A DNA stretch of 64,000 nucleotides, taken from NCBI GenBank assembly GCA_020882975.1, contig JAHRFD010000002.1, positions 380,039 through 444,038 of the forward strand, given 5' to 3'. Shown piece by piece: positions 37,229-56,479 of the stretch. The first letter of the stretch is position 1, and the number at the start of each line of letters is the position of its first letter. Position numbers and translations under genes: made by a program. This stretch comes from Microcoleus sp. EPA2 (GTDB lineage Bacteria; Cyanobacteriota; Cyanobacteriia; Cyanobacteriales; Microcoleaceae). The notes under the pieces were generated by a model. That model saw nothing but the letters and a program-made list of their open reading frames with translations. It had not been told where the DNA came from and did not search any database.

Positions 37229-38023
37229 ATGCTGACATTGATTCACCCAACTGCTGTGATTCATCCCCGCGCTGAACTTCACTCTACTGTAGAAGTGGGA
37301 GCTTATGCTGTAATTGGGGAAAGAGTGAAAATCGGACCACAAACTAAGATTGGCGCTCATGCAATTATCGATGGGCTCACAGAAATAGGTGCTCGTAATC
37401 AAATTTTTCCCGGCGCAGCTATTGGTTTGGAACCTCAAGATTTAAAATATGAGGGTTCTCTAACTAGGGTGGACATTGGCGACGATAATTTAATTCGGGA
37501 ATATGTGACTATTAATCGGGCTACCCAACCGGGAGAAAGCACGACCATCGGCAATCATAATCTATTGATGGCTTATGTTCACGTTGGGCATAATTGTTCG
37601 ATCGCCGATCGAGTAATTATAGCTAATGCCGTGGCTTTGGCCGGACACGTTAAAATAGAGTCTCAGGCTCGATTGAGCGGTGTTTTGGGGGTTCACCAAT
37701 TTGTCCATATCGGCCGGCTGTCTATGGTGGGCGGATTGAGCAGAATCGATCGAGATGTCCCTCCTTATATGTTAATCGAGGGGAATCCTTCGAGAGTGCG
37801 ATCGCTTAACAAAATTGGTCTCCAACGGGCTGGTTTGACACCAGAAGATTTAGATCTTTTGAAGAAGACGTTTCGGATTTTATACCGATCCGGCTATACT
37901 CTGAATCAAGCTTTGGCAGAGTTGGATTTATTACCGGAAAATCACCACTTGCAGCATCTGCGGAAATTTGTGCAAGAGTCTGTTACCAAACCCAGACGCG
38001 GTTTGATTCCAGGAAAAAAATGA
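37229..38023 (+). CDS. lpxA: UDP-N-acetylglucosamine O-acyltransferase
   Basis: 264 residues. A left-handed beta-helix of hexapeptide repeats ([33 protein letters not shown]) with the catalytic His in [18 protein letters not shown], then [19 protein letters not shown] and a C-terminal helical domain. It transfers a hydroxyacyl chain from ACP to UDP-GlcNAc, the first step of lipid A synthesis, in the cytosol. The order lpxC-fabZ-lpxA is conserved. An unrelated Uma2 gene separates it from lpxB. Confidence 0.96.
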
Positions 38024-38064
38024 ATGAGGTAGAATAAGTCTATGAACTAGGTAAATCTTTTCCT

Positions 38065-38667
38065 ATGAATGTATACACTTTAGCAAAATCTACATCCCAT
38101 GAAACAGAACAAGATGGCTCCATTATGTTCTACGATGTTAGCTGGGAGCAATTTGAAGCGATAGAGATAGCTTTTAAAGATCTGAGGCGTGTAAAATTTT
38201 TCTATCTCGATCGAATACTGCAAATTATGACAGTCTCTCCCGAACATGAAATAATCAAGAAAACCCTCTGTATGCTGCTAGAGGCATATATGAGAGCAAA
38301 GGGCATTAGATTTTATGGTAAGGGCGGGCCAACTCTGGGTGACAGAGAATTAGGCGGTAGAAAAGAGCCGGATGATTCCTATGACATAGGCACCCAAAAA
38401 ACAGTCCCAGATATTGCTATCGAAGTGGTAATTACCAGTGGCGGTATAAATACTCTAGAATTATACAAAAGGTTGGGGATTCGGGAAGTCTGGTTTTGGC
38501 AAAATAGTCAGTTATCTCTCTACGATTTAAGAGGTGAAAATTATGAGCAGATTGCCAGGAGTACATTCCTTCCCAATCTGGACTTAGAATTACTACTACG
38601 CTGTGCTAATATGCCGGATCAATATGATGCTGTTACGGAGTTATTAGCCAACATCTCACCTGTTTAA
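38065..38667 (+). CDS. Uma2 family endonuclease-like protein (DUF820)
   Basis: 200 residues. It has a PD-(D/E)XK-like core: the acidic VPDIAIEVVITSGGINTLELYKRLGIREVWFW motif is typical of the Uma2 family, as is a preceding RKEPDDSYDIG. Members are extremely numerous in cyanobacteria, and their function is not established. It is inserted between lpxA and lpxB, with a 10-base gap to lpxB, so it rides on the lipid A transcript. No antitoxin partner is seen. Confidence 0.9.
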   Translation: MNVYTLAKSTSHETEQDGSIMFYDVSWEQFEAIEIAFKDLRRVKFFYLDRILQIMTVSPEHEIIKKTLCMLLEAYMRAKGIRFYGKGGPTLGDRELGGRKEPDDSYDIGTQKTVPDIAIEVVITSGGINTLELYKRLGIREVWFWQNSQLSLYDLRGENYEQIARSTFLPNLDLELLLRCANMPDQYDAVTELLANISPV

Positions 38668-38676
38668 ATTCAGAAT

Positions 38677-39849
38677 ATGAAAATTTTTATTAGCACTGGT
38701 GAGGTTTCGGGCGATTTGCAAGGGGCTTTGTTAATTAGTGCCATAAAACGTCACGCAGCTACCGCTGGTTTAGAGTTAGAAATTGTCGGATTGGGCGGGC
38801 AGCGGATGGCGGAAGCTGGCGCTACTATTTTAGCCGATACTGTGGCTATTGGTTCCATGGGACTTATCGAATCAGTCCCCTATATTTGGCCAACTATCCA
38901 AGTTCAGAAAAAAGCTAAACAATACCTAAAAAATTCTCCGCCCGATGTAGTTGTATTGATTGATTATTTAACTCCAAATTTAGGTATTGGTAGCTACATC
39001 CGTCGCTGTTTGCCTTCGTTGCCGGTACTTTGGTATATTGCTCCTCAAGAGTGGGTTTGGTCTATTTCTCCTCGGAATACTTCTTTGATTGTCAATATTT
39101 GCGATCGCATATTAGCCATTTTTCCCGAAGAAGCTACTTATTTTGAAAAAAAAGGCGCCCAAGTCAGTTGGGTTGGTCATCCTTTGGTGGATAGAATGCA
39201 GGCTGCGCCCAGTCGCGAAGTTGCCCGCAAAACTTTGGGAATTCCATCGGAACAGGTGCCAGTGGCTCTAATTCCGGCCTCTAGAGGCCAAGAGTTGAAG
39301 TACCTGATGCCTGTCATTTTTGAGGCTGCTCAAATTATTCAAGCTAAATTGCCGGCAGTTCATTTCTGGATTCCTTTGTCTCAATCTGCTTTCCGCAGCC
39401 AAATCGAAGCAGCTATTGCAGATTTTGGTTTGCGCGCTACTCTACTAGAAAATCAAACTCTGGAAATTTTGGCGGCTGCGGATCTGGCGATCGCTAAATC
39501 TGGTACTGTTAATTTGGAGTTGGCTTTGCTGGATGTTCCCCAAGTTGTCCTCTATCGCGTCAGTCGAATTACGGCGATTATTGCCCAGTATTTGCTGAAA
39601 TTTTCGATTCCTTTTATGTCTCCGCCCAATTTGGTGCAAATGAAGCCGATCGTCCCTGAGTTGCTGCAAGACGAGGCGACTGCGGAAAATATAGTCTTTC
39701 ACGGGCTGGAATTGCTGCAAAATGGCGATCGACGACAACAGACTTTGGACGGTTATCGGGAAATGCGGGAACATTTGGGAGAGGTGGGGGTGTGCGATCG
39801 CGCTGCTGCGGAAATTATGAAATATCTGAAATTAAACGTAGCAAATTAA
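38677..39849 (+). CDS. lpxB: Lipid A disaccharide synthase
   Basis: 390 residues, family length. It has MKIFISTGEVSGDLQGALL (UDP-sugar site), GGQRMAEAGA, VLIDYLTPNLGI, LWYIAPQEWVWSISPR, WVGHPLVDRM, LIPASRGQELKYL and AKSGTVNLELALLDVPQVVLYRVS, all LpxB/GT19 signatures. The enzyme joins UDP-2,3-diacylglucosamine to lipid X at the inner face of the membrane. The start is fixed by the N-terminal motif. Confidence 0.97.
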   Translation: MKIFISTGEVSGDLQGALLISAIKRHAATAGLELEIVGLGGQRMAEAGATILADTVAIGSMGLIESVPYIWPTIQVQKKAKQYLKNSPPDVVVLIDYLTPNLGIGSYIRRCLPSLPVLWYIAPQEWVWSISPRNTSLIVNICDRILAIFPEEATYFEKKGAQVSWVGHPLVDRMQAAPSREVARKTLGIPSEQVPVALIPASRGQELKYLMPVIFEAAQIIQAKLPAVHFWIPLSQSAFRSQIEAAIADFGLRATLLENQTLEILAAADLAIAKSGTVNLELALLDVPQVVLYRVSRITAIIAQYLLKFSIPFMSPPNLVQMKPIVPELLQDEATAENIVFHGLELLQNGDRRQQTLDGYREMREHLGEVGVCDRAAAEIMKYLKLNVAN

Positions 39850-39872
39850 CATAAATTTGGTTCTAAAAGGTT

Positions 39873-41198
39873 ATGCCAAGCAATCGGAAAAAGCGACCGA
39901 TCGCTGTTGATTTATTTGCAGGTGCCGGTGGCATGACACTGGGTTTTGAACAAGCAGGTTTTGATGTACTTGCCTCTGTGGAAATTGACCCTATTCATTG
40001 TGCTACCCACCAGTTTAATTTCCCTAAGTGTTCTATTTTGTGTAAAGATGTAGCACTATTAACCGGAGCGGAAATTCGGAAAAATTCTCCCATTGGTAAG
40101 CGCCAAATAGACGTAGTGATCAGTGGTTCGCCCTGTCAAGGATTCTCGATGATGGGCAAGCGCGATGTAGATGACCCGCGCAATTCTTTAATTTTTCACT
40201 TTCAACGCTTGGTTTTGGAGCTAAAACCCAAGTTTTTTGTCATGGAAAATGTACCGGGAATCAAGGCAGGAGAACATAAGGAACTTCTGCATCTTTTAAT
40301 TAGTTCTTTTATAGCATCAGGCTATCAAGTAGAAGAAAATTATCAAGTTCTCAATAGCGCTCACTACGGAGTTCCCCAAGCTCGCAAAAGATTGTTTCTC
40401 CTGGGTTCTAAGGCTGGTTGTGAATTACCAAAATATCCTCCACCCATTACTTTACTGCCCAAATTAAATCAGAAAATCGCTCCTAGCCAGCGGAAAAGAA
40501 AAGGTAAAAATAATCCTGATTTACCTCTTGTCCCAACAGTTATGGAGGCTATTGGAGATTTGCCAGAAGTGGAACTATACAGCGAGTTGCTGTACCGAGA
40601 TTGGGTAATGGCGGAGTATGGAAAATCTAGTGACTACGCGAGTATCATGCGCGGCATTGATGCTTCAGATGATGATTATTCCTACCCTCGCGAGTACGAT
40701 AGACAAATCCTCTCTTCTAGTTGGCGCACCAAACATTCCCAGGAATGTATCGAAAGGTTTAGGGCGGCAAAACACGGCGAAAAAGAGCCGATCAGCCGTT
40801 TTTACAAGCTGCACCCCGACGGAGTTTGCAACACTCTCAGAGCAGGAACAGACAGGGCTAGAGGGGCTTATACTTCGCCGAGGCCGATTCACCCCATCGC
40901 ACCGAGGTGTATTACGGTTAGGGAAGCAGCGCGACTACATTCTTATCCTGACTGGTTTAGATTTCACGTCACCAAATGGCACGGTTTTCGTCAAGTCGGA
41001 AATTCTGTACCACCCCTATTAGCCAAGGCTGTGGCGGCCCAAATTATTCGTGCTTTGGGCGTTCAGGTAATTAAACCCACTGCTAAGCTGACATGGGGAG
41101 ATGATGGTTTGCTAAAACTGAATTGGTTGGAAGCCGAAAAATATTATCAAAATAGAGATTATCAAAATAGAGGGGGGGAAGAATCCCCACGCCTTTAG
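39873..41198 (+). CDS. DNA (cytosine-5) methyltransferase, orphan
   Basis: 441 residues. Motif I VDLFAGAGGMTLGFEQAGF, motif IV GSPCQGFSMMG with the catalytic Cys, motif VI FVMENVPGI, motif VIII GVPQARKRLFLLG and motifs IX-X near VTKWHGFRQVGNSVPPLLA. No restriction enzyme or other R-M gene is adjacent. In cyanobacteria a solitary enzyme of this type methylates the HIP1 core CGATCG (M.Ssp6803I type), which is plausible here given the HIP1 density, but the target is not proven. The last seven codons (GEESPRL) and stop lie in a transposon-end relic, so the natural C-terminus was altered. Confidence 0.93.
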   Translation: MPSNRKKRPIAVDLFAGAGGMTLGFEQAGFDVLASVEIDPIHCATHQFNFPKCSILCKDVALLTGAEIRKNSPIGKRQIDVVISGSPCQGFSMMGKRDVDDPRNSLIFHFQRLVLELKPKFFVMENVPGIKAGEHKELLHLLISSFIASGYQVEENYQVLNSAHYGVPQARKRLFLLGSKAGCELPKYPPPITLLPKLNQKIAPSQRKRKGKNNPDLPLVPTVMEAIGDLPEVELYSELLYRDWVMAEYGKSSDYASIMRGIDASDDDYSYPREYDRQILSSSWRTKHSQECIERFRAAKHGEKEPISRFYKLHPDGVCNTLRAGTDRARGAYTSPRPIHPIAPRCITVREAARLHSYPDWFRFHVTKWHGFRQVGNSVPPLLAKAVAAQIIRALGVQVIKPTAKLTWGDDGLLKLNWLEAEKYYQNRDYQNRGGEESPRL

Positions 41199-41215
41199 GC
41201 TGGGGAGTGTCAAAA
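41174..41215. mobile_element. Solo right end of an IS605-type (TnpB) element
   Basis: GAATCCCCACGC-TTTA-GGCTGGGGAG followed by TGTCAAA matches the right end of the TnpB element at 27021-27056. No tnpB is attached. It contains the stop codons of both convergent genes, the methyltransferase (41196-41198) and the cyclase (41210-41212). Confidence 0.8.
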
Positions 41216-42553
41216 TCTTTCTTTCAATAAATAAGCAGGCATCCTTCCTTTACCTTTGACGGTGATTAAACCACGTTCTTGAAACTGATACTGATTTTTT
41301 AATAATAAGTAAGTAGCTTCAGTAATTTGAATTTCATCTGCTATACCGTGAGATTCCATGCGCGCCGCAGTATTTACTGTATCTCCCCACAAATCATAAA
41401 TAAACTTCTTTGTGCCGATGATTCCGGCGACAACAGGCCCGGAATGAATGCCGATACGAATCCTGAGTTCAGAGTCAATCTGTTTTCTATATTTGGCGAT
41501 GGCTTTTTGCATATCCAGGGCCATTTCTGCGATCGCTTCTGCATGATCGGCTCTAGGATAGGGTAGTCCTGCTACTACCATATAAGAGTCACCAATGGTC
41601 TTAATTTTTTCTAAACCGTGATTGTGGGCTAGTCGATCGAATTTGGAAAATATGTCGTTTAGCAAATGTACTAATGCTTTTGGGGATATGGAAGCTGAAA
41701 GTTGAGTAAAGCCCACAATATCCGCAAACATGACGGTAACTGCTGCGAATTCATCGGCAATGATACCTTCTTGTTTTTTTAATCTTTCGGCAATTACTTC
41801 TGGTAATATATTTAGCAGCAACTTCTGGGATTTTTGTTGTTCTATTTCTAATTTTGCTAAATAATCCTGCATGGTTTGATAAGCAAGATTCCTTTCTACC
41901 AAATTAATATAAGCTTGGGAATGGTATCTAATTCTAGCGAGTAACTCCACTTGATGCGGCAATTTTACCAAATAATCATTGGCTCCCAAGGAAAATGCTC
42001 GCGCTTTCATTTCGGCTTCTTCTTTGCTGGAAAGCACGATCATAGGAATGTCTCTTGTCAAAGAATTGGCTCGGAAAAAACGCAACAATTGCAATCCATC
42101 TATTTCCGGCATTACTAAATCTTGGAGAATTACGGTTGGCTTTACCTCTAAGGCTTTATGAATTGCTTGAGCTGGATCGCTACAGTAATGAAAGATAATG
42201 TCTTTTTCATCGGCGAGCATTCTGCTTACCGCCTCGCCGATCATTTCCTGGTCGTCAATAAGTAGGACTGTGACAGGATATGGTGTATGTTCTGTCACGT
42301 TGGATGGCTTTTTGCTTTCTGAATTTAAGGGTGAATTTAAGTCAAGACGGTGGTGGCTGTTTTGGAACTCGCTCTGCTTGGGATATGGGATATCTGTTGG
42401 TGTAAGTGGGGGATTGCGACCATTTCCCCTATCTTTGAGCTTAAATGTTACCAAGTTGCCATTGAATTCTGGGTTTTCTAGTGGATTGATTGCGTGAGAG
42501 CGATCGAATTGAATAGTTCCAGAGTTGGTTAACTTCATAATTGCATCAGACAA
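41210..42553 (-). CDS. Response regulator-adenylate cyclase (WspR-like receiver plus class III cyclase)
   Basis: 447 residues. Residues 1-90 look disordered. Residues 94-215 are a receiver: VTVLLIDDQEMIGEAVSRML, VILQDLVMPEIDGLQLL (Asp145), IPMIVLSSKEEAEMK, ANDYLVKLP and RIRYHSQAY. This closely follows the receiver of Pseudomonas WspR. A coiled helix (220-255) leads to a class III cyclase with metal Asp278 (FADIVGF) and Asp322 (GDSYM), the ATP-specifying Lys in EKIKTIG, and YDLWGDTVNTAAR with Asp387 and Arg398. It is predicted to make cAMP in the cytosol. It follows cheB in the Wsp-like cluster on the same strand, 400 bases away. The stop codon lies in a transposon-end relic. Confidence 0.92.
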   Translation of the reverse strand: MSDAIMKLTNSGTIQFDRSHAINPLENPEFNGNLVTFKLKDRGNGRNPPLTPTDIPYPKQSEFQNSHHRLDLNSPLNSESKKPSNVTEHTPYPVTVLLIDDQEMIGEAVSRMLADEKDIIFHYCSDPAQAIHKALEVKPTVILQDLVMPEIDGLQLLRFFRANSLTRDIPMIVLSSKEEAEMKARAFSLGANDYLVKLPHQVELLARIRYHSQAYINLVERNLAYQTMQDYLAKLEIEQQKSQKLLLNILPEVIAERLKKQEGIIADEFAAVTVMFADIVGFTQLSASISPKALVHLLNDIFSKFDRLAHNHGLEKIKTIGDSYMVVAGLPYPRADHAEAIAEMALDMQKAIAKYRKQIDSELRIRIGIHSGPVVAGIIGTKKFIYDLWGDTVNTAARMESHGIADEIQITEATYLLLKNQYQFQERGLITVKGKGRMPAYLLKERF

Positions 42554-42955
42554 CGGCTATTGTTTGCTGAGGGTTAAAGCTTTTACTTCATAAATTCATA
42601 ATTACCAATAGCGACCCGGATATTTGGCAGTAAGTTTACTCAGTAATAATACTAAACGTGTCAAGCTTTGACCGCTCATCTTTGTGAAATCTTTACAAAT
42701 GTTAGCGCGCTTGAGATATTTTGCCAAAGTTACGGGTGCTAGGTTTGGGAGCGACGGGCTTGGTGCTTTCTAGCATTTGCCTTGGCCGGGAAATTTAGAG
42801 ATGCAGCAGTGAATCTACGGTATTTAACAGTATAAAATGCACCATTAAATCGAGCGGAATTCTACAATGACATGATCTTCTAAGGGTAGTCGATGTTTCA
42901 TCGGTCATTGTGCTCAAGCTTCTAAGCAATATGGCTCAAACATCTGGAATAAGTT
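42554..42955. other. Gap between cheB and the cyclase gene
   Basis: This 402-base stretch carries no gene, clear terminator or recognised repeat. Since the two genes run in the same direction, it should hold a separate promoter for the cyclase gene or a long leader. A few A/T-rich blocks (about 42640-42710) are candidates. Confidence 0.5.
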
Positions 42956-43975
42956 CTACAATAGATGATTGAGGCAGGCTGAGCCGATCGCCTCCAAGGA
43001 CAAAATCTGTACTGCCGCATCTAGCTCGGCCGCCGCTTTTGGCATCCCGTAAACTACTGAGCTGTGGCGATCCTGGGCGATGGTGTGCCACCCCATTGCT
43101 CGCAAAACTTTCAGTCCTTTGGCACCGTCTTTACCCATACCTGTTAACAGCACTGCTACCCCTTTTCCCGGCCAGTATTGGGCTACACTATAAAAAAAAC
43201 TGTCCACGGAAGGGCGGTAGGGATAGTCTGAGGGTTCTTTCGTATACTTAAGTGTAAGATTCGATTGTAATACCAAATGGTCGTTAGTGGCGGCAATTAC
43301 CACTTTACCGGGTTCCAGGGGGCGACCGGCGATCGCCACACTCACCGAAAACGGAGTTTTTTGACTCAGCCATTGGGCCAAGCCCGGAGCAAATTCAGCA
43401 TCTATGTGTTGCACGATCGCCACAGGTACTGATAAATTTACTGGCAAAGCCGATAGCAAAGTTACCAAAGCCTGGGGACCACCAGTGGAAGAGCCGATCG
43501 CCAGCAACGGGGAATTCCGAGATTTAGGGCCAGCAGTTGGGGAGCGAGAATTATGGTTATTTTTGGCGATCGATCTAGCAACTTTAGAAATAGTTCTTAA
43601 CAGCTCACTCCCCCCTGTTTGAGAATTGCCACTCGCTCCCAAAATCGGCGTATTAATAGCATCAAAAGCTCCATATCCCATCGCTTCAAAAACCCTGCCA
43701 GCATTAGCTGTCACAGAAGAAGTGACAACCAGAATTGCACAGGGAGATTTCTGCATAATCTGTCGCGTCGCCTCCACCCCATCCATCACCGGCATAATCA
43801 AATCCATCAAAATCAAATCAGGAGTATCCCCAGCACATTTTTCTACAGCCTGTGCCCCATTTCCAGCTATCCAAGCAATCTCATACTCCGGTACTGTCAC
43901 CAAAACTCGACGCAGCGCTTCGGCGGCAATTAGCGTATCATTAACTATAGCTATTCTCATCTTGATAGTGCCCAT
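42956..43975 (-). CDS. cheB: CheB-type protein-glutamate methylesterase (WspF-like)
   Basis: 339 residues; the family start is MRIAIVND at 43960 (the first ATG adds five residues). The receiver has [13 protein letters not shown]. The C-terminal esterase has the triad Ser in [10 protein letters not shown], His in VQHIDAEFA and Asp in [12 protein letters not shown]. It removes methyl groups from receptor glutamates when phosphorylated by CheA. Position after the CheA gene matches WspF. In Wsp, loss of WspF activates signalling. The acidic pair is degenerate (VND). Confidence 0.94.
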
Positions 43976-43997
43976 AGTTTACCTCAGTCAGTCATTC

Positions 43998-46877
43998 TTA
44001 AGGTTCACCGATTAAATCCACAACCGCATTTAACAGCGTATCATCGTGAAAACTGCTTTTAGTTAAATAATAATCTGCTCCCACAGATAAACCTCGCAGT
44101 CGATCTTCCTGACGGTCTTTATAAGAAACAATAATTACGGGAATTGAATTTAAAGTAGCATGATTTTTAATCTGACTTACCAACTCGATGCCAGTCATTC
44201 CCGGCATATCCACATCACTGATTACTAAGTCGTACTGAGCGCTACGCAGAGCATTCCAACCATCTATACCATTGACGGCTATGTCTACTCTATATCCTTG
44301 ATTTTCTAAAATTTTTCGCTCAAATTCTCGGACTGTAATCGAATCTTCTACTATCAAAAGACGCTTGGCAATTTTTGAGTCCTCAGTTTTGGTAGTTTCA
44401 CTTACCTTCTTTAAGCTAGTTCTAGCTAGGAGTCGATCGGTCGATCGCACCAGGTATTCAACATCAATAATCAGCACCGGCGAACCATCTTCCATGAAAG
44501 CAGCAGCACTGATATCTGGTATTTTACCCAAACGGGGATCTAAAGGTCTGACAACTAAATCCCGTTCGCCCAGAATTTTATCTACTGCTAAACCATAACT
44601 GTTCGATCGAGCGCTGACAATAATCACCGGTAGCAAATCTAGTTTCCGATTAGGCGCCGCCAACTCCAGCACTTGATAAGCATTCACCAAACCAATATTT
44701 TCATCGTCTAAAGTAAAATACTGTCGATTTTCAGCGATCGCAATCTCAGAAGTTTCAACCAAAACCAGGCGATCGATCCGCGTCAGAGGAAAAGCATAAG
44801 GTTCCCCAGAAATTTCTACCAACAAAGTGCGAATTACTGACAGCGTTAGCGGCAATTGCAAGTAAAAACTCATACCTTTTTCCGGTTGAGATATAGCCCG
44901 GAGAATACCACCAACCTCCTGCACCATACTCTGCACAATATCCAACCCCACACCACGGCCCGAAATTTCAGTAACTTGACTAGCAGTAGAAAATCCCGGC
45001 AAAAACAGAAAATCCATCAATTCTGATTCTGTCAGTTTAGCAGCCATTTCTGCACTGACCATCTCTTTACTAACAATTTTTTCACGCAGTTTATCTAATT
45101 CGATTCCCTTACCGTCATCCGAGACAACAATAGAGAGCATCCCGCCACGGTGACTAGCTTCCAGCCTAATAGTACCTTGTGGAGATTTCCCCGCAGCCAA
45201 ACGTGCTTCGGGAGGCTCTATCCCATGGTCGAGAGCGTTTCGCAAAATATGAGTCAGCGGTGCTTCTAATTTTTCTAAAATATCGCGATCGACTTGAGTT
45301 GACTTACCAACAACTTCAAATTTTACTTGTTTGCTTAACTGTCTTGCTAAATCTCGGAGCATTCGCGGAAAACCTTGAATACCATCGGCGAAAGGTCGCA
45401 TATTACTAGCAATAACTTCTCGATACAAGCGCTCAGACAAATTAGCATAACGCCGCGAAAAAAACTCTAATTCATTAATTCTATCTGACAAAACATGGGA
45501 ACATTCATTGGCGGCTTTTATGGCGCCGATCAAATAATCCTCCGACCGCCTATCCAGCACCGTATCGCTTAAGGAATCCTGCAATTTTTCCAATAAACTA
45601 TATAGTTTATTTTGGTGTTTTCTCAGGATGGATAACGAATCTCCAAAGGGTTGCAGCCATTTAGTTTCTACTAAGGATTCGCTAGCTAAGCCCATAATTT
45701 TGTTTAAATTTTCGGCATTGACTCTAATGGTCCGATCGGATTGTTTTTGCTGATTTTCTTTATTTTTGAATTTTAAATTTTCCGATTTTCCCCGGATTTT
45801 TTCGGGAGAATGCTGCTGTAAATCCAAGGTTGGTTCACCAGAATTTGAGGCAGGTTTTGCGTCTGGTAAGTCGGTCGATTGCTTAGTTGTTTTTGGTGGC
45901 TGGGATGCAGTTGTTTTGACATTGGTTTTTTTGCGAGATGCTTTTGAGGGAACTAATGTCGGCATTGCTGATTGTGAAATCAAATTTATCAGATTGACTA
46001 TATTATCTATTTCGGGCTCTATTTTAATCAGCCAATCTTCCACCTGTCTGGCAGGAATTTTCATAAGTGTTATAAAAATATTTACTCCGGCCAGCAGACT
46101 TTCAACTTGAATTTCATTTAAACTAGCTTTGTATTTTGCCACCGCCAACAATGTATTTTCTATGACCACCGCCAGTTTAATAATTTGATGGAAATGAAGT
46201 ATTTTAGCTGCACTTTGAATTAAATGAGCAGATTTGACTAGGGATTCTAAGTCTAAGTCTAAATTGAGATTATTTTTGAGTAATAATAAATTTTCTTGTA
46301 ATAATAATGATTGAGATTCAACTTCTTCTACAAATAAAGATAGCATCGACAAATCAGTCTTAATTTGTCTATCTTCCCAAGTCTCATTAGTATTATTTAA
46401 AGGTAAACTAGGGATGACTTCTATCTCTAGATTGTCGTCATTAGTAGTGGGTTTTGCCTCGATTTTGCTATTGATAATAGCTAAGATGATAGTTTCTAGG
46501 TTGTCAATTTCTGACTGATTGGTAGAGAGCCAATTTTCGATTTCTGTGGCCGGTATTTGGCTGAGGCGGGAAAGTAAGTCGATCGCCCCTAGTATCACAT
46601 CAATTTTATCTGGTGAATCCAGGGCGATCGCCCCAGACTGAGCAGCCACAAAGCAATCTTCCATAACATGGGTGATTTGGACAGCAGCATCAAGTCCGAC
46701 AATCCGTGCAGCACCCTTGAGCGAGTGAGCCGCCCGCATCAAAGATTCTAGTTCAACAGGGGAATTGGGGTTATTTTCCAATGCCAAAATGTTCTCATTT
46801 AATATCACTACTTGGGTTTCTGTCTCCATCCGAAATAAATCCATCATGGAGAAATCACTCATATCTCGATCGCTCAT
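43998..46877 (-). CDS. cheA: CheA-type hybrid kinase (WspE-like): HPt-HPt-HATPase-CheW-REC
   Basis: 959 residues. The first HPt has MRAAHSLKGAARIVG (phospho-His near 50). A second HPt-like domain (about 190-300) has VKSAHLIQSAAKI. After a basic linker the ATPase has HILRNALDHGIEPPEARL, DDGKGIELDKL and GRGVGLDIVQSM. A CheW domain (SVIRTLLVEISGEPYAFP) and a receiver (RLLIVEDSITVREFER, VISDVDMPGMTG) complete it. The HPt-kinase-CheW-REC layout matches WspE, except for the second HPt. It phosphorylates CheB and probably the cyclase regulator. Encoded between two CheW-type genes. Confidence 0.95.
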   Translation of the reverse strand: MSDRDMSDFSMMDLFRMETETQVVILNENILALENNPNSPVELESLMRAAHSLKGAARIVGLDAAVQITHVMEDCFVAAQSGAIALDSPDKIDVILGAIDLLSRLSQIPATEIENWLSTNQSEIDNLETIILAIINSKIEAKPTTNDDNLEIEVIPSLPLNNTNETWEDRQIKTDLSMLSLFVEEVESQSLLLQENLLLLKNNLNLDLDLESLVKSAHLIQSAAKILHFHQIIKLAVVIENTLLAVAKYKASLNEIQVESLLAGVNIFITLMKIPARQVEDWLIKIEPEIDNIVNLINLISQSAMPTLVPSKASRKKTNVKTTASQPPKTTKQSTDLPDAKPASNSGEPTLDLQQHSPEKIRGKSENLKFKNKENQQKQSDRTIRVNAENLNKIMGLASESLVETKWLQPFGDSLSILRKHQNKLYSLLEKLQDSLSDTVLDRRSEDYLIGAIKAANECSHVLSDRINELEFFSRRYANLSERLYREVIASNMRPFADGIQGFPRMLRDLARQLSKQVKFEVVGKSTQVDRDILEKLEAPLTHILRNALDHGIEPPEARLAAGKSPQGTIRLEASHRGGMLSIVVSDDGKGIELDKLREKIVSKEMVSAEMAAKLTESELMDFLFLPGFSTASQVTEISGRGVGLDIVQSMVQEVGGILRAISQPEKGMSFYLQLPLTLSVIRTLLVEISGEPYAFPLTRIDRLVLVETSEIAIAENRQYFTLDDENIGLVNAYQVLELAAPNRKLDLLPVIIVSARSNSYGLAVDKILGERDLVVRPLDPRLGKIPDISAAAFMEDGSPVLIIDVEYLVRSTDRLLARTSLKKVSETTKTEDSKIAKRLLIVEDSITVREFERKILENQGYRVDIAVNGIDGWNALRSAQYDLVISDVDMPGMTGIELVSQIKNHATLNSIPVIIVSYKDRQEDRLRGLSVGADYYLTKSSFHDDTLLNAVVDLIGEP

Positions 46878-46958
46878 TTTTCCTCACTTCTATTTAATCT
46901 AAATTCTCCCATCTTAACTGGTCATTTACCACATTCACGATGCCCTATTCCCCATGTT

Positions 46959-47624
46959 TTATATGATTTTATTATTCAAACTATCAAACAGCAAATCATC
47001 ATTCAGATAACAAACATTTTGACCTTGCCAAGTGATGATTCCCTTGGTATAAGTTTGAGGAACTTTAGAAACTGTAGCCGGGACATTTCTTAATTCTTCT
47101 AAATTTATGCGGTGAATTCCGTGCATTTCATCCACCACAAACACCCAGCGACTACCTTCTTTCTCAACAACTACCATCCGTTCGTAAACAACCAGACTGA
47201 CATTCTTGCGGTGAGAATCTGCTGTTTCTAGTCCCAGAAGTGATGTTAAGGAAATGCACAATTGGAGTTCGCCGCGAATATTTACCAACCCAATAAGTAT
47301 AGGATTGCTGCGGTGTGGCAAAGTGTGAGTCACAGATAGCTGTGTCACTTCTTTAAACAAGGCCGCTGGTAAAGCCAGCCATTCATCCCTGAGCCTAAAA
47401 ATACCTACGGATATAGTATCTGTAGTCTTAGGGTTAGTTACTTCTGGAGTCGAACGCAGTACCTGAGTCCACTCATCGAGATATCCCCCAGGTAATTCTT
47501 GTTCCAACAAACTGCGGCCACCGTCGGCATAAACAGGACAATTGCGACAGTGAATATATTTTTTTAGTTGGCGACAAGTGCGATCGCCCGCTATACCAAT
47601 TTGATTCCAACAATCATCAGTCAT
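46959..47624 (-). CDS. CheW-type coupling protein with N-terminal Cys motif (WspD-like)
   Basis: 221 residues. The N-terminal DCWNQIGIAGDRTCRQL, then HCRNCPVYADGG, is a four-Cys pattern typical of WspD. It is followed by a CheW beta-barrel (FRLRDEWLALPAALFKEV, HRSNPILIGLVNIRGEL, WVFVVDEMHGIHRI). It links receptor to CheA at the membrane array. The Cys residues may bind a metal. It starts 15 bases from the MCP stop on the same strand. The presence of this rare type is the best single marker that the cluster is Wsp-like. Confidence 0.92.
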   Translation of the reverse strand: MTDDCWNQIGIAGDRTCRQLKKYIHCRNCPVYADGGRSLLEQELPGGYLDEWTQVLRSTPEVTNPKTTDTISVGIFRLRDEWLALPAALFKEVTQLSVTHTLPHRSNPILIGLVNIRGELQLCISLTSLLGLETADSHRKNVSLVVYERMVVVEKEGSRWVFVVDEMHGIHRINLEELRNVPATVSKVPQTYTKGIITWQGQNVCYLNDDLLFDSLNNKII

Positions 47625-47638
47625 TCGATTTTACATTT

Positions 47639-49231
47639 TTACTTTAAAAAAGCTAGCATTTCTTGACGTAAACCGATTGTAGCCTCATTAACTTGCCCGA
47701 TCGCGCCATTGATTTCCCTGAGCGCCTCAGCCGTTTGCGAAGAAGCTTCACTCAACTGCACCATTGCTTCGCTGATTTGCACAGCACCCTGAGATTGTGC
47801 ATCCATCCCTTCATTCACCTCTGCAAAACGGGGAGTGAGAGCTTGTACCCGTTGGATGATCGATTCTAACTGTAAACTAATACTTTGGACATCTTCCACT
47901 CCCCGCCGCACTTGATTGGTAAACTTATCCATTTCCATGACACCAACTCCCACCGCCGATTGCATTTCTTTCACCATACTTTCAATATCCAAAGTAGCTA
48001 CTGCTGTTTGATCGGCTAGTCGGCGAATTTCTCTCGCCACCACTGCAAATCCTAGTCCGTACTCTCCCGCTTTTTCCGCTTCAATAGATGCGTTTAGGGA
48101 TAGCAAGTTAGTTTGATCTGCTACTTTAGTAATCGTGGTGATAATACTGTTAATGTTATTGGCTTTTTCAGTAATTGCTCCCAATTTCCCTGATATAGTA
48201 ATCGTGGATTCTGCTAATTTATTCATTGTGGATTCCATGCGCTGAATTTGTTCCTTGCCGCCCCCAGCCGATTGAGCAGCTTCCTGAGACATTTCTGCAA
48301 CTTCATCCATGGTTCTCGCCAGTTGCATCGCAGTGGCAGCAATTTCTTTGGCTGTAGCTACGACTTCATTGGTCGAGGCAAATTGTTGGTTCATGGTCGC
48401 TTCTAATTGTTTCCCAGAAGTAGCAATTTGGTTGGTAGAACCACTAATTTTAATTCCCGATAGATTCACTTGATTTTCCACAGTTTGGGAAATTGCTTTC
48501 GTGAGAAATACCCCGAACAGTCCCGCAGTCAGCGGTCCCAATATCATCCCCACAACCACCCAAAATGTAGTTTGACTAATATCTTGATTTGCTTCTTTTT
48601 TGGCTATTTCCGCTACATCTTCATTAATTTTTAAAATTTTAATTAACAAAGAAGTAAGTTCTTCAAAGGGCTGTTGATTAACTTTAGCTTTGGCATTCAA
48701 TTGATTGTAAACTACTCCGGCTTTCCTGGCTAGTTCCATCTCTGGTGATGCTGCTTTGCCTTGGTTCATCAGTTCAATCTGCCTTTTAAAAGGGTTGATG
48801 ATTCCAAAATTTTCAAAAGTTTTATTAAACTCTAAAAAAGATTCATGGTTTTTTTTCCATATTTTCCATTTTTCCAGAAACTCTTGGTATAGCTTGTCTT
48901 CTTCCGGTGTTCTTAACGCAGGTTCATACTGTTTAAAACCATCGTCAATCTGCTGCCATGCTTGCTGGATTTTTGTCAATTGAGCAGTCTTTTCAGCGGG
49001 AGTGAATTCGATATTTACCAAGGCTCTTTCTGAAGCTTCAATTTGAGTTTTCCCTTCATTAATTTTCCACAAACCAAGCACACTTGGTAGGGCAATATTC
49101 GTAAAAGTATCAATATGTCCCGTGAGCCTCGCATTGCCTCTCCATCCGATAAAAGCTACACCTAAGACAAGGATAGCTAGAAAGATAAATGCAGCATTTA
49201 ACCGCTTCTTAAAGCTGAGATTATTAAACAT
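47639..49231 (-). CDS. Methyl-accepting chemotaxis protein (WspA-like receptor)
   Basis: 530 residues. TM1 at about 12-30 ([19 protein letters not shown]), a four-helix periplasmic sensor of about 180 residues (4HB type), and TM2 at about 211-232 ([21 protein letters not shown]). There is little or no HAMP before the long cytoplasmic coiled coil. The signalling tip is [37 protein letters not shown]. Gln/Glu methylation sites are likely in the [14 protein letters not shown] and [14 protein letters not shown] regions. In Wsp the receptor senses surface contact. Its partners are the two CheW proteins, CheR and CheB around it. Confidence 0.95.
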
Positions 49232-49318
49232 TTTTTATGCCTTTGTGCTGAATTAACATCTATTTTTTAAACATACCGAGCTGGCGAGCAATCGCTCAGT
49301 TAAGATCTAGCTATGAGG

Positions 49319-50629
49319 CTATTTTTCTAGACGCTGGATGCGCTGACGAAGGATAGTTGCACCGCGAATATCTGCGCGTTCTTCTTTGAGCAAAGCTAGG
49401 TGAATTAGTGCTTCATAGTGATTTGGTTCGAGGTAGGTTGCTTTGTGGAAAGATTGCTCTGCTTGAAAGCGATCGCCTGTGGCTTGGTAGATTTCACCTA
49501 ATAACACGTAAGCGTCAGCATTGGTGGGATTTTGACTGAGATAAGTTTGGCACAGTTTGGTTGCTTCTGGCAATTCTCCCCGATCGGCTAAATGACGGGC
49601 TGTGTCTAAATCCGCATTTGCCGGCTGGGTATTTGCTGTTTCAGGTGCGATCGATCGAACCGACAACATCTCGGAAGCATCGCCACCGACAAATTTTCCC
49701 TGGGAAGTGGAGAATCTACTTGGCCACCTTGGGGATGTATTACTTCTACTTTCAGCACCTTTCGATTCCCGAACAAATTCTGAAATATTCGTTTTGTTTG
49801 TATCTTTTTTTACTAGCACAGATGCGCGATCGGCCATGTCAGTTTTGCGGTAAGCAAATGCTAGGGGGTGACGCACAGAAGCAAATTCAGGAGGCAGTTT
49901 TTGTCCGCTTTCCGAGTGACCTAAAAATAATATACCAGGTGTTTTCAACCAGTTATTCAACAATTGAATTGCTTGATTAATACTGGGTTGGTCTAGATAA
50001 ATTAACAGGTTTTTACAGAAAATTAAATCGTAATAATTAGGGGGGATTAAACAATTAGGTTCTCGGATATTAGCTTGAATAAAATTAACTTTTTGTTTGA
50101 CGAATTCTTGCAAGTGATACAAATCTCCGGTGTTCGTAAAATAGCGTTCCCGAAAGTCTAAGTTTTGGCCGCGAAAAGAGTTTTTACCGTAAATTCCTTG
50201 CTGGGCAACTTGGAGAGCAACTTTGCTGATGTCTGCGGCATCGATGCTGAAGTTGAAGGAACTTAAACCAGCTTCTAGCAGGGCGATCGCGATCGAATAA
50301 GGTTCCTCCCCTGTAGAACAAGGAAAGCTCAACACGCGGAGGGTTTTGCCGAGATTTTTTGGCCACCACTCAGAAATCACGTAGTTGCTCAAAAAAACAA
50401 AGGGTGCTCGATCGCGAAAAAACCAAGTTTCCGGTATGACTACAATCTCTATTAATTCTTGCAATTCCTGGGGCGAAGACTGCAATCTGGTCAAGTAGAT
50501 ATTGATGTCTGTTAAACCGCAATTGGCCATGCGTCGGTGCACCGCCCTAGTAATGGTGCTAGAACCAATTGTCATGGCATCCAAGCCAATTTTTTGTCTG
50601 AGAAAAGCTTCAATTGCTGCTTGTGTCAT
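49319..50629 (-). CDS. cheR: CheR methyltransferase with C-terminal TPR (WspC-like)
   Basis: 436 residues. CheR N-terminal helices (about 1-60), then SAM domain PETWFFRDRAPFVFL, RVLSFPCSTGEEPYSIAIALLEAG, ADISKVALQVAQQGIYGKNSFRG and YDLIFCKNLLIYLD. After a Ser-rich linker (about 290-340) TPR repeats follow (ARHLADRGELPEATKLCQTYLSQNP, DAYVLLGEIYQATGDRFQAEQSF). It methylates receptor glutamates. The CheR-TPR fusion is the WspC layout. Its ATG overlaps the stop of the upstream CheW by four bases (ATGA, 50626-50629), so the two are translationally coupled. Confidence 0.95.
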   Translation of the reverse strand: MTQAAIEAFLRQKIGLDAMTIGSSTITRAVHRRMANCGLTDINIYLTRLQSSPQELQELIEIVVIPETWFFRDRAPFVFLSNYVISEWWPKNLGKTLRVLSFPCSTGEEPYSIAIALLEAGLSSFNFSIDAADISKVALQVAQQGIYGKNSFRGQNLDFRERYFTNTGDLYHLQEFVKQKVNFIQANIREPNCLIPPNYYDLIFCKNLLIYLDQPSINQAIQLLNNWLKTPGILFLGHSESGQKLPPEFASVRHPLAFAYRKTDMADRASVLVKKDTNKTNISEFVRESKGAESRSNTSPRWPSRFSTSQGKFVGGDASEMLSVRSIAPETANTQPANADLDTARHLADRGELPEATKLCQTYLSQNPTNADAYVLLGEIYQATGDRFQAEQSFHKATYLEPNHYEALIHLALLKEERADIRGATILRQRIQRLEK

Positions 50630-51114
50630 TTGGCTGGCGGGAGCAGTAAATAAGTTTTTTGAGTTTCTGACAGCAGATGTTCTACTCTAAGAAATTGAAT
50701 CATACCGCGATCGTCAGTAATTATTTCTCCTAAATAAGGAGTGCTGTCAACCTTCAGGCTGGGACTAAGAAATTCTGTTTCAGGTTTCTTGAGAGTTTCT
50801 GTCATCCGTTCTGCGATCAGTCCTAAAATGAGAGGGCCGTGTAAAATATCACCATTACTCTCAGTCGTATCTGGTAATTCGCAATTGACTAAGACAATGC
50901 GAGTGCTCAGGTAAGCACGGGCTGGTTTACCTTGTATCATTTGGCATAGATCGATCGCTGGTACTAGGTGTCCCCGGTAGTTAAACAAACCGGGAATGTA
51001 TTCTGGTGCCCCGTGGAGTTTTTGGAGAGTGACAGTGGGCACTACTTCAATGACGCGCTTGGTATCCAGGGCGTAGCGATCGTCGTCCCCTATATAAAAC
51101 AGCAACATCAACAT
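50626..51114 (-). CDS. cheW: CheW coupling protein (WspB-like)
   Basis: 162 residues, a lone CheW domain: MLMLLFYIGDDDRYALDTKRVIEVVP, LHGAPEYIPGLFNYRGHLVPAIDLCQMI, and MIQFLRVEHLLSETQ. It connects the receptor to the kinase. It is the first gene of the minus-strand cluster, and the promoter should lie between 51114 and 51224 (divergent BON gene). It overlaps cheR by four bases. Confidence 0.93.
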   Translation of the reverse strand: MLMLLFYIGDDDRYALDTKRVIEVVPTVTLQKLHGAPEYIPGLFNYRGHLVPAIDLCQMIQGKPARAYLSTRIVLVNCELPDTTESNGDILHGPLILGLIAERMTETLKKPETEFLSPSLKVDSTPYLGEIITDDRGMIQFLRVEHLLSETQKTYLLLPPAK

Positions 51115-52822: not shown

Positions 52823-52951
52823 CAAGCATAGAGTCCAGACACGGCATCAGTCAGTTGTGAAGCTAATCCGAAGATGATTGAATGCCTTGCCTCTACCGAT
52901 CTTTCCAGTCAGTGCGTGTATAATTTAAATATCTTGCTGAACCGATTAATT

Positions 52952-55900
52952 ATGGAATCGTGGCATCACTGGGATGACTTTCTAAAAATAATCTCCCGCG
53001 ACCATCAGTTGACTGATGCTGAAACTGAATCTTTTTTATTACAATTTGCTAGACAGAATCTGGGCCAACGCTTAGAAGAAATTTCTGCCCAACTGCCACT
53101 GACGGAAAATCCGCTGGCAAATCATAAAAAGCGGATGTCCGAGGTATATGATAAATTCTCTCAGAATGGCATTGAACTAAAGCCAAAAAACAACAAATCC
53201 AGACCTTTACTGAAATGGCTGGAAACTGAGTATTCTCAATGGTTGCTTGTTCAAGACTCTGATTCTGCCTTATCATCTGCTACAACAGATAAAAGCATCG
53301 ACTGGCGCGATATCTGCGGCAAAGTTTTAGAAACACAACAACTGCGCCGCCAAGCAACAGCACAACAATATGAATTAAATATTTACGTTCCCTTGGGATT
53401 AATGGAACGTCCCAAAACACCAAACCCCAGACAAAATCCCACTGGGGAAGAGTCACAACCGCAGAAAGAACCAGAACTGCAAATCGTCGAAACTTATAAA
53501 GATGATGCTTTTTTCCAGAAAGTTATTGCCGAAAATAACACAGAAAAAGGCAAGCATATCGCGATTATTGGCGAACCGGGTGCGGGGAAAACTACCCTGT
53601 TAGGAGAACTGGCGGAACAGTTGCCGAAAAATTCCCCGGATTTTCCGATTTGTATTCGACTGGCAGATTTACGGGAAAGCACAATAAAAGATTATTTAGT
53701 CAATAATTGGCTGGAGAAAGCACTGGAACATATAGAACCTGTTCCCCAGAGTGTCACTCCAGAAATTATAGAATCTCTTAAACAACTGTTCCGTCAAGGT
53801 AAGGTGTGGTTGCTGTTGGATGGGGTGGATGAAATGGTGGCCGAATCCCCCGTGCAGGCGTTGGCGAAAATTCGGGAACAACTGACTGACTGGGTGGGTA
53901 AAGCGCGGGTGGTGCTAACTTGCCGTTTGAATGTTTGGGATGCGGCGATTAGCAATACCCTGACGGATTTTGAGACTTATAAAACTTTGGAATTTGAACC
54001 TGACGATGTAAATGAGTTTATTCGCCAGTGGTTTGAGGAAGCGAGTCAGGATGAGAAACGGCGCAATTCTGGGCATGAAACTTTTTGGCGGGAACAGGGA
54101 AACCGCTTGCAGCAAGAGTTAAAAGAACCGGGAAAAGAGCGAATTCGGGAACTGGTACGCAATCCCCTACGGTTATCGATGTTGTGTCAGTCTTGGTGCG
54201 TACCCAAACAGGATTTGCCGGAAACGAAGGCGGCACTTTACGAGCAGTTTACCACTTATTTCTTTGAGTGGAAACAAAAGGAATTCCAGGAAAAGCACCG
54301 AGTATTAAAGGAAACGGATAAAGAAAAGATTCAAGAAGCTTTGGCAAACTTGGCTTTAGCGGCTATGGAAAGCGCTAATCGGTTTCGGATTGAGAAAAAA
54401 TTTGCGATCAAGCAGATGGAGGAAGAGTGGTTTAATTTAGCTGGTGAATTGGGATGGTTGGTTTTAGTTGACAGGGATACCCGCACGAAGAAGCCTGTTT
54501 ACGCTTTCTACCATCCCACGTTTCAGGAATATTTCGCTGCTTGTGCAATTGGGGATTGGCACTTTTTCTTAAATCACATTCCTGACAACCCTAAAGATTC
54601 TAAAGCAAATTACCGGATTTTTGATAACCAGTGGAAAGAAGTTATTTTATTCTGGCTGGGGCGTGAAGATTTACGAACAGAATGTAAAGAATCATTTATT
54701 AAAGCTTTGGTTGAATTTCAAGATGGATGTCAGGAGTATATTTTAGAGAGTAAAGGTTTTTATGAGTACCGATCGTATTTTTTAGCAGCCCTAGGTATTG
54801 CTGAGTTTAAGGAATGTAGCTGTGCTGATGCAATCCTATCGGAATTGATTAGATGGGGATATGGTGATTTCAATTTAAAGATGCAGATGTGGGTTGGGAA
54901 AAGACGTTCTATTTCAGAAGTAGCGAGGGCTGCATTCCAAGAGAGCGATCGCTCTAGAACTATTCCTGCTTTAATTAACGTGATGCTTAACAGTACCACT
55001 GATGCCACTAATACTTTATTGGCAAATATGGTTGAGAGTTTGGGGCAAATTGGAACTGGCAACCAACAAGCGATCGAAGCACTGCTTAATGTGATTAGTA
55101 CAACTTCCAATCTTTATCCTCTGATTGAAGGGCATTATCTCATTGATAAAGCATTTAATAGCTTAGGACTCATAGGTCAGAACAATCAGGAATTGATTGA
55201 TGAACTTAATAAGATCATGCAAAGCAGCCAACATGAATACACCTGTGTAAAGGCTGCTGAATGTTTGGGAACTATAGTTTTCGGTAATGAGCAAGCGATC
55301 GCAAGGTTAGTGGATGTGATAGAAAAAAGTGCTGGTGATTTTATGCGTAGTAGTGAAGCACATCTTAGCTTAGCAAAAATTGCACCCGATCATCCTCAAG
55401 CTGGCATAATTCATGAAAAAAGAACTGTATTTGAAGTAGCTCGGCATTTATTTAACTGGTTATTTGAAGAAAAAACAACCTCTAATGATGAGTTAAAACG
55501 GAGATGGGCAGAAGAAACATTGGAGCATATTTTCTCTAAATCACCAAAAGCAATTAAACCACTTATTGATATAATAAAAAACAGCCCCAATGAATATATC
55601 CTTCTCGATACCATCAGAATTTTTGGAGAATTTAGCAGGAATGATACCGAAGCAGTATCACTACTAATTGAGTTGAGTCGCAACAGCCAAAACTTTGTAA
55701 TTTGTAGATGGGCAGTTGGATATTTGGCTGAGGTTAACGTAATGCACGAAGAAGTAATCAATGTCTTAATCGATATACTTTACAGCGATAGAGATATTCG
55801 CGCTCATGTAGCTTATAGTTTAGGAATAATACTCAAAAGGTTTCCAATGTCATCAGTGGTCTCAAATTTAAAAAATTATATGCAAAGTCAAATATCTACC

Positions 55901-56479
55901 GATCGAGATTTCGACCTTTATTGTAAGTTATACGATATTCTGTGGCACTGCGCCCAAAATCTGCCCTACCCCGACTTCTATCAAGCTTGGCATCAAGACA
56001 CTCTTACCAACTCCGCAACAGCAAGCCTCAACTTAGCCAACTTACCTCAAGACCTTGCCGACGCTATTAACGATCGACCCGATTTATGCAACAAAGTAAA
56101 GCTAATTTGCATTGATAGTTACAAATTCGGTAATCCCGAAAATCCCGCTACAAAAATTTACAATGAAATGCGCTTACAAGGTTGTGACAAAAGTGAAGAT
56201 GGCAAACCAAAAACAATGGCAGAACTACAAGATTACTGGGATGAATTAAGGATAGAAAGCGAAATTCCCCTGTTTTTCCTCTGCTACGATTCCACTGCAC
56301 TCTCAGCCACACCCACAGGATTTAGCGAGCCATTTCTGAAAGCTTTAAGCAAATTCGATCGCGCGATTTGTGTGGTGTGCGAACCAGGGGATATTCCGCT
56401 GCAAACTTTTTCACCCCAACAAAAAGACTTGGTAGCAAATATTGTACAATGGATTGAAAAAGTAATAACCGAAAATTGA
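52952..56479 (+). CDS. NACHT-domain STAND NTPase with HEAT-like repeats
   Basis: The frame opens at 52874, but ATG 52952 (MESWHHWDDFLK) is a more natural start. With the longer numbering, residues 27-130 form a helical N-terminal domain, the NACHT has Walker A IIGEPGAGKTTLL (233-240), Walker B VWLLLDGVDEM and sensor VLTCRLNVWD, and PVYAFYHPTFQEYFAACAIG ends the NTPase part. From about residue 590 to 950 HEAT-type repeats recur (AIEALLNVIST, AIARLVDVIEK, AVSLLIELSRN). The C-terminal 150 residues form a separate alpha/beta domain. NACHT-repeat proteins in bacteria include anti-phage sensors, so defence is plausible but not proven. No partner effector gene. Confidence 0.88.
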   Translation: MESWHHWDDFLKIISRDHQLTDAETESFLLQFARQNLGQRLEEISAQLPLTENPLANHKKRMSEVYDKFSQNGIELKPKNNKSRPLLKWLETEYSQWLLVQDSDSALSSATTDKSIDWRDICGKVLETQQLRRQATAQQYELNIYVPLGLMERPKTPNPRQNPTGEESQPQKEPELQIVETYKDDAFFQKVIAENNTEKGKHIAIIGEPGAGKTTLLGELAEQLPKNSPDFPICIRLADLRESTIKDYLVNNWLEKALEHIEPVPQSVTPEIIESLKQLFRQGKVWLLLDGVDEMVAESPVQALAKIREQLTDWVGKARVVLTCRLNVWDAAISNTLTDFETYKTLEFEPDDVNEFIRQWFEEASQDEKRRNSGHETFWREQGNRLQQELKEPGKERIRELVRNPLRLSMLCQSWCVPKQDLPETKAALYEQFTTYFFEWKQKEFQEKHRVLKETDKEKIQEALANLALAAMESANRFRIEKKFAIKQMEEEWFNLAGELGWLVLVDRDTRTKKPVYAFYHPTFQEYFAACAIGDWHFFLNHIPDNPKDSKANYRIFDNQWKEVILFWLGREDLRTECKESFIKALVEFQDGCQEYILESKGFYEYRSYFLAALGIAEFKECSCADAILSELIRWGYGDFNLKMQMWVGKRRSISEVARAAFQESDRSRTIPALINVMLNSTTDATNTLLANMVESLGQIGTGNQQAIEALLNVISTTSNLYPLIEGHYLIDKAFNSLGLIGQNNQELIDELNKIMQSSQHEYTCVKAAECLGTIVFGNEQAIARLVDVIEKSAGDFMRSSEAHLSLAKIAPDHPQAGIIHEKRTVFEVARHLFNWLFEEKTTSNDELKRRWAEETLEHIFSKSPKAIKPLIDIIKNSPNEYILLDTIRIFGEFSRNDTEAVSLLIELSRNSQNFVICRWAVGYLAEVNVMHEEVINVLIDILYSDRDIRAHVAYSLGIILKRFPMSSVVSNLKNYMQSQISTDRDFDLYCKLYDILWHCAQNLPYPDFYQAWHQDTLTNSATASLNLANLPQDLADAINDRPDLCNKVKLICIDSYKFGNPENPATKIYNEMRLQGCDKSEDGKPKTMAELQDYWDELRIESEIPLFFLCYDSTALSATPTGFSEPFLKALSKFDRAICVVCEPGDIPLQTFSPQQKDLVANIVQWIEKVITEN

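Follow-up and report, generated by a model that had tools for sequence, protein, structure and literature searches.

A Wsp-type chemosensory cluster in Microcoleus whose final regulator joins a WspR-type receiver to a class III cyclase

How bacteria sense surfaces by way of cyclic di-GMP (c-di-GMP) has been modelled on the Wsp system. We have analysed a window of 64,000 nucleotides from contig JAHRFD010000002.1 of Microcoleus sp. EPA2 (genome size 6.26 Mb), in which seven minus-strand open reading frames (ORFs) at 41210-51114 encode CheW, CheR-TPR, a chemoreceptor (MCP), a four-Cys CheW, HPt-CheA-REC, CheB and a receiver (REC) joined to a class III cyclase. The best explanation, to which we give a probability of roughly 0.72, is a chemosensory system of the Wsp type, ending in a regulator that combines a WspR-type receiver with a class III adenylyl cyclase, together with the signalling chain and the view of the core as a platform that are set out below. 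A first-pass annotation of this DNA had described the gene set, its strand and domains, and a content equal to WspB, C, A, D, E and F; all seven genes are where it had put them, and Pfam finds the domains that it had named. The genes and domains, in window coordinates and with lengths in amino acids (aa), are as follows.

50626..51114, minus strand: CheW coupling protein (WspB counterpart), 162 aa; Pfam CheW, 70.8 bits
49319..50629, minus strand: CheR methyltransferase with TPR (WspC counterpart), 436 aa; Pfam CheR, 135 bits, and TPR matches
47639..49231, minus strand: chemoreceptor with a four-helix-bundle sensor (WspA counterpart), 530 aa; Pfam MCPsignal, 119.5 bits, and 4HB_MCP_1, 56.2 bits
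46959..47624, minus strand: second CheW, with N-terminal Cys 5, 17, 26 and 29 (WspD counterpart), 221 aa; Pfam CheW, 71.3 bits
43998..46877, minus strand: hybrid CheA with two HPt stretches, HATPase, CheW and REC (WspE counterpart), 959 aa; Pfam
42956..43975, minus strand: CheB, a methylesterase that carries a receiver (WspF counterpart), 339 aa; 444.7 bits with an NCBIfam CheB subfamily (cut-off 342)
42554..42955, minus strand: intergenic region between cheB and the regulator, 402 bp, partly conserved in 10 aligned loci (the window and nine of the genus)
41210..42553, minus strand: regulator, WspR-type receiver plus class III nucleotidyl cyclase; 447 aa when counted from the TTG; Pfam Response_reg, 70.4 bits, and Guanylate_cyc, 224.8 bits
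41909..42274, minus strand: WspR-type receiver, residues 94-215, with phospho-acceptor D145 and K197, both kept in 131/131 proteins of the same architecture
41807..41953, minus strand: one unbroken helix in the AlphaFold2 model, residues 201-249, which connects the last helix of the receiver to the cyclase (block pLDDT, the program's confidence score, 88-96)
41222..41755, minus strand: class III cyclase catalytic domain, residues 267-444 (Pfam), aligned to adenylate cyclase 9

The receiver is of the WspR type

In a phmmer search of 177,635 PDB sequences the receiver scored 175.8 bits with the WspR entry 3bre and 175.6 bits with 3i5a, while the next match, PleD, reached 60.7 bits. The WspR motifs noticed at first reading are thus present and lie far beyond chance. 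That the domain might be just any REC is ruled out by this gap of 115 bits to the next family and by comparison with other REC-cyclases: the window receiver is 63% identical to the 3bre segment, as against 27-35% for the other REC-cyclases examined in the genome and its relatives. Those proteins resemble the regulator in combining REC with a class III cyclase, and their cyclase domains are 58-69% identical; they differ in their receivers, and their cyclase domains lie mostly in a separate part of the cyclase tree. Scoring of 148/148 candidates, chosen by receiver and not by GGDEF domain, revealed no second WspR-type receiver in the genome (321 bits for that of the window, 62 bits for the next). 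Two outcomes that the first-pass annotation had named as fatal to its reading, a receiver grouping with unrelated REC-cyclases and a true WspR partner elsewhere, therefore do not occur, the latter within the reach of this receiver-based search.

The core is that of Wsp and co-occurs with the regulator

As reference we used L221, a Pseudomonas-like locus whose receiver is 90% identical to 3i5a. Its WspE found the window CheA first in the whole Microcoleus genome (591 bits, next match 267 bits), and the window CheA found the Wsp CheA as its best match in 6/6 Pseudomonadota genomes tried; this reciprocal pairing bears out the Wsp identity proposed for the core. BLAST identities to L221 are 35% for the MCP, 39% for CheW, 35% for CheR, 35% for WspD, 43% for CheA and 52% for CheB, and all core proteins are at least 30% identical to their Wsp counterparts, the threshold of a published survey (PMC8552884; our reference was L221, not the strains of that paper). 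The order departs from the A-B-C-D-E-F-R of Pseudomonas; the window has B-C-A-D-E-F-R, in which D-E-F is kept and the regulator stands 402 bp from cheB. A further difference is the output, GGDEF in Pseudomonas and a class III cyclase in the window (Pfam: Guanylate_cyc, no GGDEF).

Regulator and core are also found together in other genomes. Among 59 related genomes the regulator (at least 74% identity) and WspD (at least 68%) occur in the same 13, in one of which (G010) the regulator is a piece at a contig end. Among 388 genomes of the class, in each of which the 10 best candidates were scored, a WspR-type receiver was found in 59 and WspD in 54, both being present in 48, the receiver alone in 11 and WspD alone in six (Fisher p 8e-44, kinship ignored). 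A search for the same gene order in other cyanobacteria, which the first reading had called for, finds 12 more loci with the regulator at this place after cheB, of which 11 belong to the genus and one to the order. The regulator's best matches among named genomes are records of Microcoleus, Tychonema and Oscillatoriales.

Broken genes were seen in two loci. In L138 the MCP and CheA are in pieces and the CheR and WspD ORFs are short, the regulator being open; in L208 (Thioploca) CheA is split over two ORFs. Either decay or sequencing error could account for them.

The cyclase is predicted to make cyclic AMP

The residues D278, D322, N394 and R398 are kept in 131/131 proteins of this architecture; we take the first two to be the metal-binding Asp residues and the others to be the transition-state Asn and Arg. 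The EKIKTIG and YDLWG motifs of the first reading are present and supply K316, kept in 130/131 proteins, and D387, kept in 131/131, presumably the Lys/Asp pair of ATP-type cyclases. The domain aligns with the C2 half of adenylate cyclase 9. On these residues the enzyme is predicted to make cyclic AMP (cAMP). Recent fusion with a local paralogue was considered and rejected, the window domain lying in a 12-row clade of the WspR-type cyclases of the genus (backbone support is weak). In the same tree 27 other cyclase rows need only two changes, a few rows being the same gene reached from two loci.

One receiver carries several outputs

The census covered 75 cyanobacterial loci, namely 63 receivers of the class sample, the window being one, and 12 further orthologues from related genomes. 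The 63 receivers carry a divergent cyclase (CYCb) in 27 cases, a histidine kinase in 24 (one a PAS hybrid), PP2C/SpoIIE in six, GGDEF in three, the window-type cyclase (CYCa) in two and no output in one. Cyclases thus make up 29/63, in two distant subtypes. Pfam, run on 74/75 loci, agrees with these profile classes (40 Guanylate_cyc, 24 HATPase_c, six SpoIIE, three GGDEF). At L089:9383-10153 we noted a 256-aa protein with a WspR-type receiver and no recognized output domain.

For Pseudomonadota, 70 of 398 genomes had a match, and the loci analysed are 20 from the 23 that scored best; they carry GGDEF in 17, a kinase in two and a divergent cyclase in one, a full cluster in a genome titled Thioploca. 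This last cyclase, which we call CYCc, scores 71 bits with the CYCb profile and 61 bits with that of CYCa and forms a long branch on the CYCb side of the cyclase tree. Both CheA and CheB lie within the fetched stretch in 50/74 cyanobacterial and 16/20 Pseudomonadota loci.

Homologues of the window protein, found by similarity to it, were scored in 7996 candidates; both domains are present in 119 of the 120 listed of 6509, and the receivers of these 119 are 53-72% identical to WspR. Since these P-numbered proteins were reached through the window protein, their number says nothing about how frequent CYCa is, for which the 388-genome sample serves. Some receiver-cyclase homologues, seen as proteins only, are labelled Planctomycetes or Acidobacteriota. 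When plasmid records were searched with the CYCa protein P0046, matches fell in 138 records and, among the matches listed, covered most of the query at ∼37-46% identity. Five Pseudomonadota genomes (G449, G476, G520, G528 and G544) have four to six receivers each, about 39-53% identical to the query and many of them in proteins of 600-1300 aa, possibly an expanded sister group.

Output changes on trees

The history of the outputs was read from one quick tree of CheA plus CheB, built from the 66/95 loci that have both genes and using no regulator columns. Parsimony places eight output changes on it. The CYCa clusters and the CYCb clusters each make up a clade of their own, with kinase, PP2C and GGDEF clusters between the two. 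In approximately unbiased (AU) tests, for which 15 of the 66 rows were dropped, a single clade of CYCa plus CYCb was rejected (p 0.0008), a single clade of kinase outputs was rejected weakly (p 0.035), and a single origin of GGDEF was not rejected (p 0.148). Given these last two results, the eight changes are to be taken as what parsimony gives on a single quick tree. The CYCa and CYCb domains are very distant from one another in the cyclase tree. A receiver-only tree, from which L132, L143, P0079 and P0092 were omitted and in which P rows were thinned at 82% identity, gives 17 changes from few columns; we rely on the CheA-CheB tree instead.

The receiver-cyclase linker varies in steps of seven

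AlphaFold2 gives low confidence to the first 90 residues of the regulator, which are likely disordered, and the helix of residues 201-249 then leads from receiver to cyclase. The H211-P251 distance in the 131 CYCa proteins is 40 in 119, 33 in 11 and 54 in one, in steps that are multiples of seven, and its length changes four times on the tree. The corresponding distances are 119 (15 proteins) and 126 (10) in CYCb, one being unparsed, and 36 (15), 50 (two), 22 (two) and 62 (one) in GGDEF proteins. We read the linker as a dimeric coiled coil whose phase would be kept for cyclase and GGDEF outputs.

A channel gene accompanies some CYCb clusters

In the 90 ORFs that flank 20 CYCb clusters, the commonest family is cNMP_binding (eight), followed by the MscS channel (seven); such family tables hold the first 25 families, and in one ORF set one long ORF of 91 was omitted. 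Seven proteins have both MscS and cNMP domains, and their genes share the strand of cheW and precede it by 54-376 bp. When the count is confined to loci where cheW was detected and has 1200 bases or more upstream of it, and to channel matches above 100 bits, this gene is present at 7/17 CYCb clusters and at 0/26 non-cyclase clusters (12 cyanobacterial, 14 Pseudomonadota; Fisher p 0.0006, kinship ignored, so that related loci are dependent). The count leaves out weaker channel matches (55-88 bits), which occur in L114, L100 and L077. The linkage is independent evidence that these CYCb clusters work through a cyclic nucleotide. Of the 11 cNMP-binding matches in the window genome, two fall in MscS proteins, whose open frames (515 and 529 aa) lie away from the cluster.

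Other features of the cluster and its surroundings

In our judgement the regulator more likely starts at ATG 42538 than at TTG 42553. Within the gap between cheB and the regulator, a conserved stretch at 42681-42699 is an imperfect palindrome (TTTGTAAAGATTTCACAAA), and a second at 42898-42935, a block that starts GCCATATTGCTTAGAAG, lies directly after cheB; the two are possible promoter, operator or terminator parts. In the WspD-like CheW two more Cys, at 123 and 205, follow the N-terminal four, and in the second HPt stretch of CheA the His would sit near residue 218, the usual one being near residue 51. The neighbour at 52874-56479 is a 1201-aa NACHT/STAND protein with HEAT repeats and an NCAB1 tail, possibly a defence or signalling NTPase. 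An lpxA-like acyltransferase, a Uma2 protein, lpxB and a C-5 cytosine methylase occupy 37229-41198, all convergent toward the cyclase; LpxB and the methylase recur near CYCa clusters, with nine matches each in the 49 ORFs that flank 12 such loci. No known RNA family or tRNA was found in the window at the thresholds used.

Discussion

The sections above show which genes are present, the kinship of the receiver, the catalytic residues, the co-occurrence of regulator and core, the changes of output on the tree and the periodicity of the linker; to these we add a putative chain of stimulus, receptor, phosphotransfer, product and physiological effect. An array of four-helix-bundle chemoreceptors with two CheW couplers, tuned by CheR-TPR and CheB, would control the hybrid CheA, which would phosphorylate D145 of the receiver; the receiver dimer would then pass the signal along one rigid helix (residues 201-249) to a pair of cyclase domains converting ATP to cAMP, and this cAMP may act on cyclic-nucleotide-binding proteins of the Crp or MscS type, whose genes lie elsewhere in the genome. 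On a wider view, the cyanobacterial Wsp core would be a platform for interchangeable outputs on one conserved receiver: two distant cyclase types, a histidine kinase, PP2C and, as a minority, GGDEF.

Several observations weigh against parts of this explanation. The 402 bp between cheB and the regulator make separate transcription possible. CheA plus CheB is lacking from the fetched stretch in 24/74 cyanobacterial loci, some of which end at contig ends, and the fetched stretches of G017 and G025 (both of the genus) and of G080 and G162 hold Wsp cores with no linked WspR-type regulator. With 34 class III cyclase matches in the genome, this cyclase may provide only a minor share of the cAMP. As to effectors, a single CYCa locus and a single Thioploca locus have room upstream, and the channel is absent from both; a scan of 10 neighbouring ORFs in the window gave no cNMP-binding match; and in the CYCa flanks none appears among the 25 families listed of 30, a single match in the others being possible. 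Nor is the linker rule general: the next piece, P251-D278, is 27 residues long in 127 of the 131 CYCa proteins and 30 in four, the GGDEF linker of L218 (62) breaks the multiple of seven, and the rule does not hold for kinase and PP2C linkers. The cores without a regulator are L228, L229, L232 and L233; in L232 two similar membrane proteins follow cheB.

The gap with its conserved sequence, suggestive of a promoter of its own, and the cores without a regulator would suit a cyclase that is an independent gene merely beside the Wsp core, driven by another kinase while the core uses another regulator. We find this distinctly unlikely, because the receiver is WspR-type and unlike those of other REC-cyclases, co-occurs with the core, is the only one of the WspR type among the 148 candidates scored in the genome, and recurs at the same place after cheB in the 12 other loci. 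There is a small but real chance that the enzyme makes cGMP, or that its messenger serves something other than motility or surface life, such as nutrient or desiccation responses. Domain names alone do not fix the product, and a review that ties cyanobacterial cAMP to gliding and pilus motility also links it to nutrient deficiency and rehydration (PMC4284465). Against cGMP stand the near-invariant K316 and D387, presumably the ATP-type pair, and the alignment to the C2 portion of adenylate cyclase 9. Scarcely credible, finally, is a single replacement of a GGDEF WspR by a cyclase in a cyanobacterial ancestor, with the present variety as later change of that state: GGDEF in 17/20 of the Pseudomonadota loci speaks for it, whereas the rejection of one origin for CYCa and CYCb clusters, the great distance between the two cyclase types and the kinase, PP2C and GGDEF clusters lying between them speak against it. 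The Wsp-type system with a WspR-type receiver and an adenylyl cyclase is the reading that we retain.

The basic arrangement is not new. In 2016 Phormidesmis priestleyi BC1401 was described as having wspB-C-A-D-E-F with a class 3 adenylate cyclase in the place of WspR (PMC4971617), the same order and kind of last gene as in the window; in its account of environmental sensing the receiver is not described as WspR-type and WspR is sought elsewhere. The same paper reports a Wsp set in the filamentous cyanobacterium Leptolyngbya boryana. A cyclic-nucleotide-binding gene precedes wspB there, which fits the MscS-cNMP gene beside cheW in the seven CYCb clusters; none was seen beside the window cluster. 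The first-pass annotation is right in outline: its receiver kinship and Wsp core are borne out, and the co-occurrence supports it, its cAMP product, the phosphotransfer and a role in motility being predictions. As stated, novelty is not supported, nor is its idea that a c-di-GMP output was rewired to cAMP, which puts GGDEF first: cyclases (29) and kinases (24) outnumber GGDEF (three) among the 63 receivers, and which output is ancestral is not fixed by the tree.

Burkholderia WspH (PMC8552884) offers a parallel, being a non-GGDEF output on a WspR-like receiver with a Wsp core; it is a REC-histidine kinase, unlike the cyclase of the window, and kinases are the output in 24/63 cyanobacterial cases of our census. 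The 2021 survey that describes WspH regards Wsp as exclusive to beta/gammaproteobacteria, with WspR or WspH as the only outputs, and our cyanobacterial census contradicts it on both points. A survey of CheR-TPR proteins reports many output domains in such clusters generally, mononucleotidyl cyclases included (PMC3447774). We found no description of interchangeable outputs on the WspR receiver, or of the channel linkage, in titles and abstracts, most subscription journals being outside the scope of the search; as far as these searches show, what is new is the pattern of outputs on the receiver and not the basic Wsp-cyclase idea.

Taken more broadly, we lean towards the view that Wsp is an old platform common to at least Cyanobacteria and Pseudomonadota, with the receiver as a plug for at least five output types. 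Cyclases would have been added on two or more occasions, possibly on three (CYCa, CYCb and that of Thioploca), and would outnumber the c-di-GMP output in cyanobacteria, one lineage adding a likely MscS-cNMP effector. If this is true, the gene set of the CYCb lineage would hold in one place a relay from surface sensor through cyclic nucleotide to ion channel. Against the textbook c-di-GMP output, the occurrence in cyanobacteria of the Wsp core and receiver with cyclase, kinase and phosphatase outputs suggests a sensing platform with interchangeable outputs. It raises two questions, whether surface contact raises cAMP through Wsp in filamentous cyanobacteria and how one receiver can switch several enzymes, and for the second the multiple-of-seven linker rule provides a concrete mechanical hypothesis.

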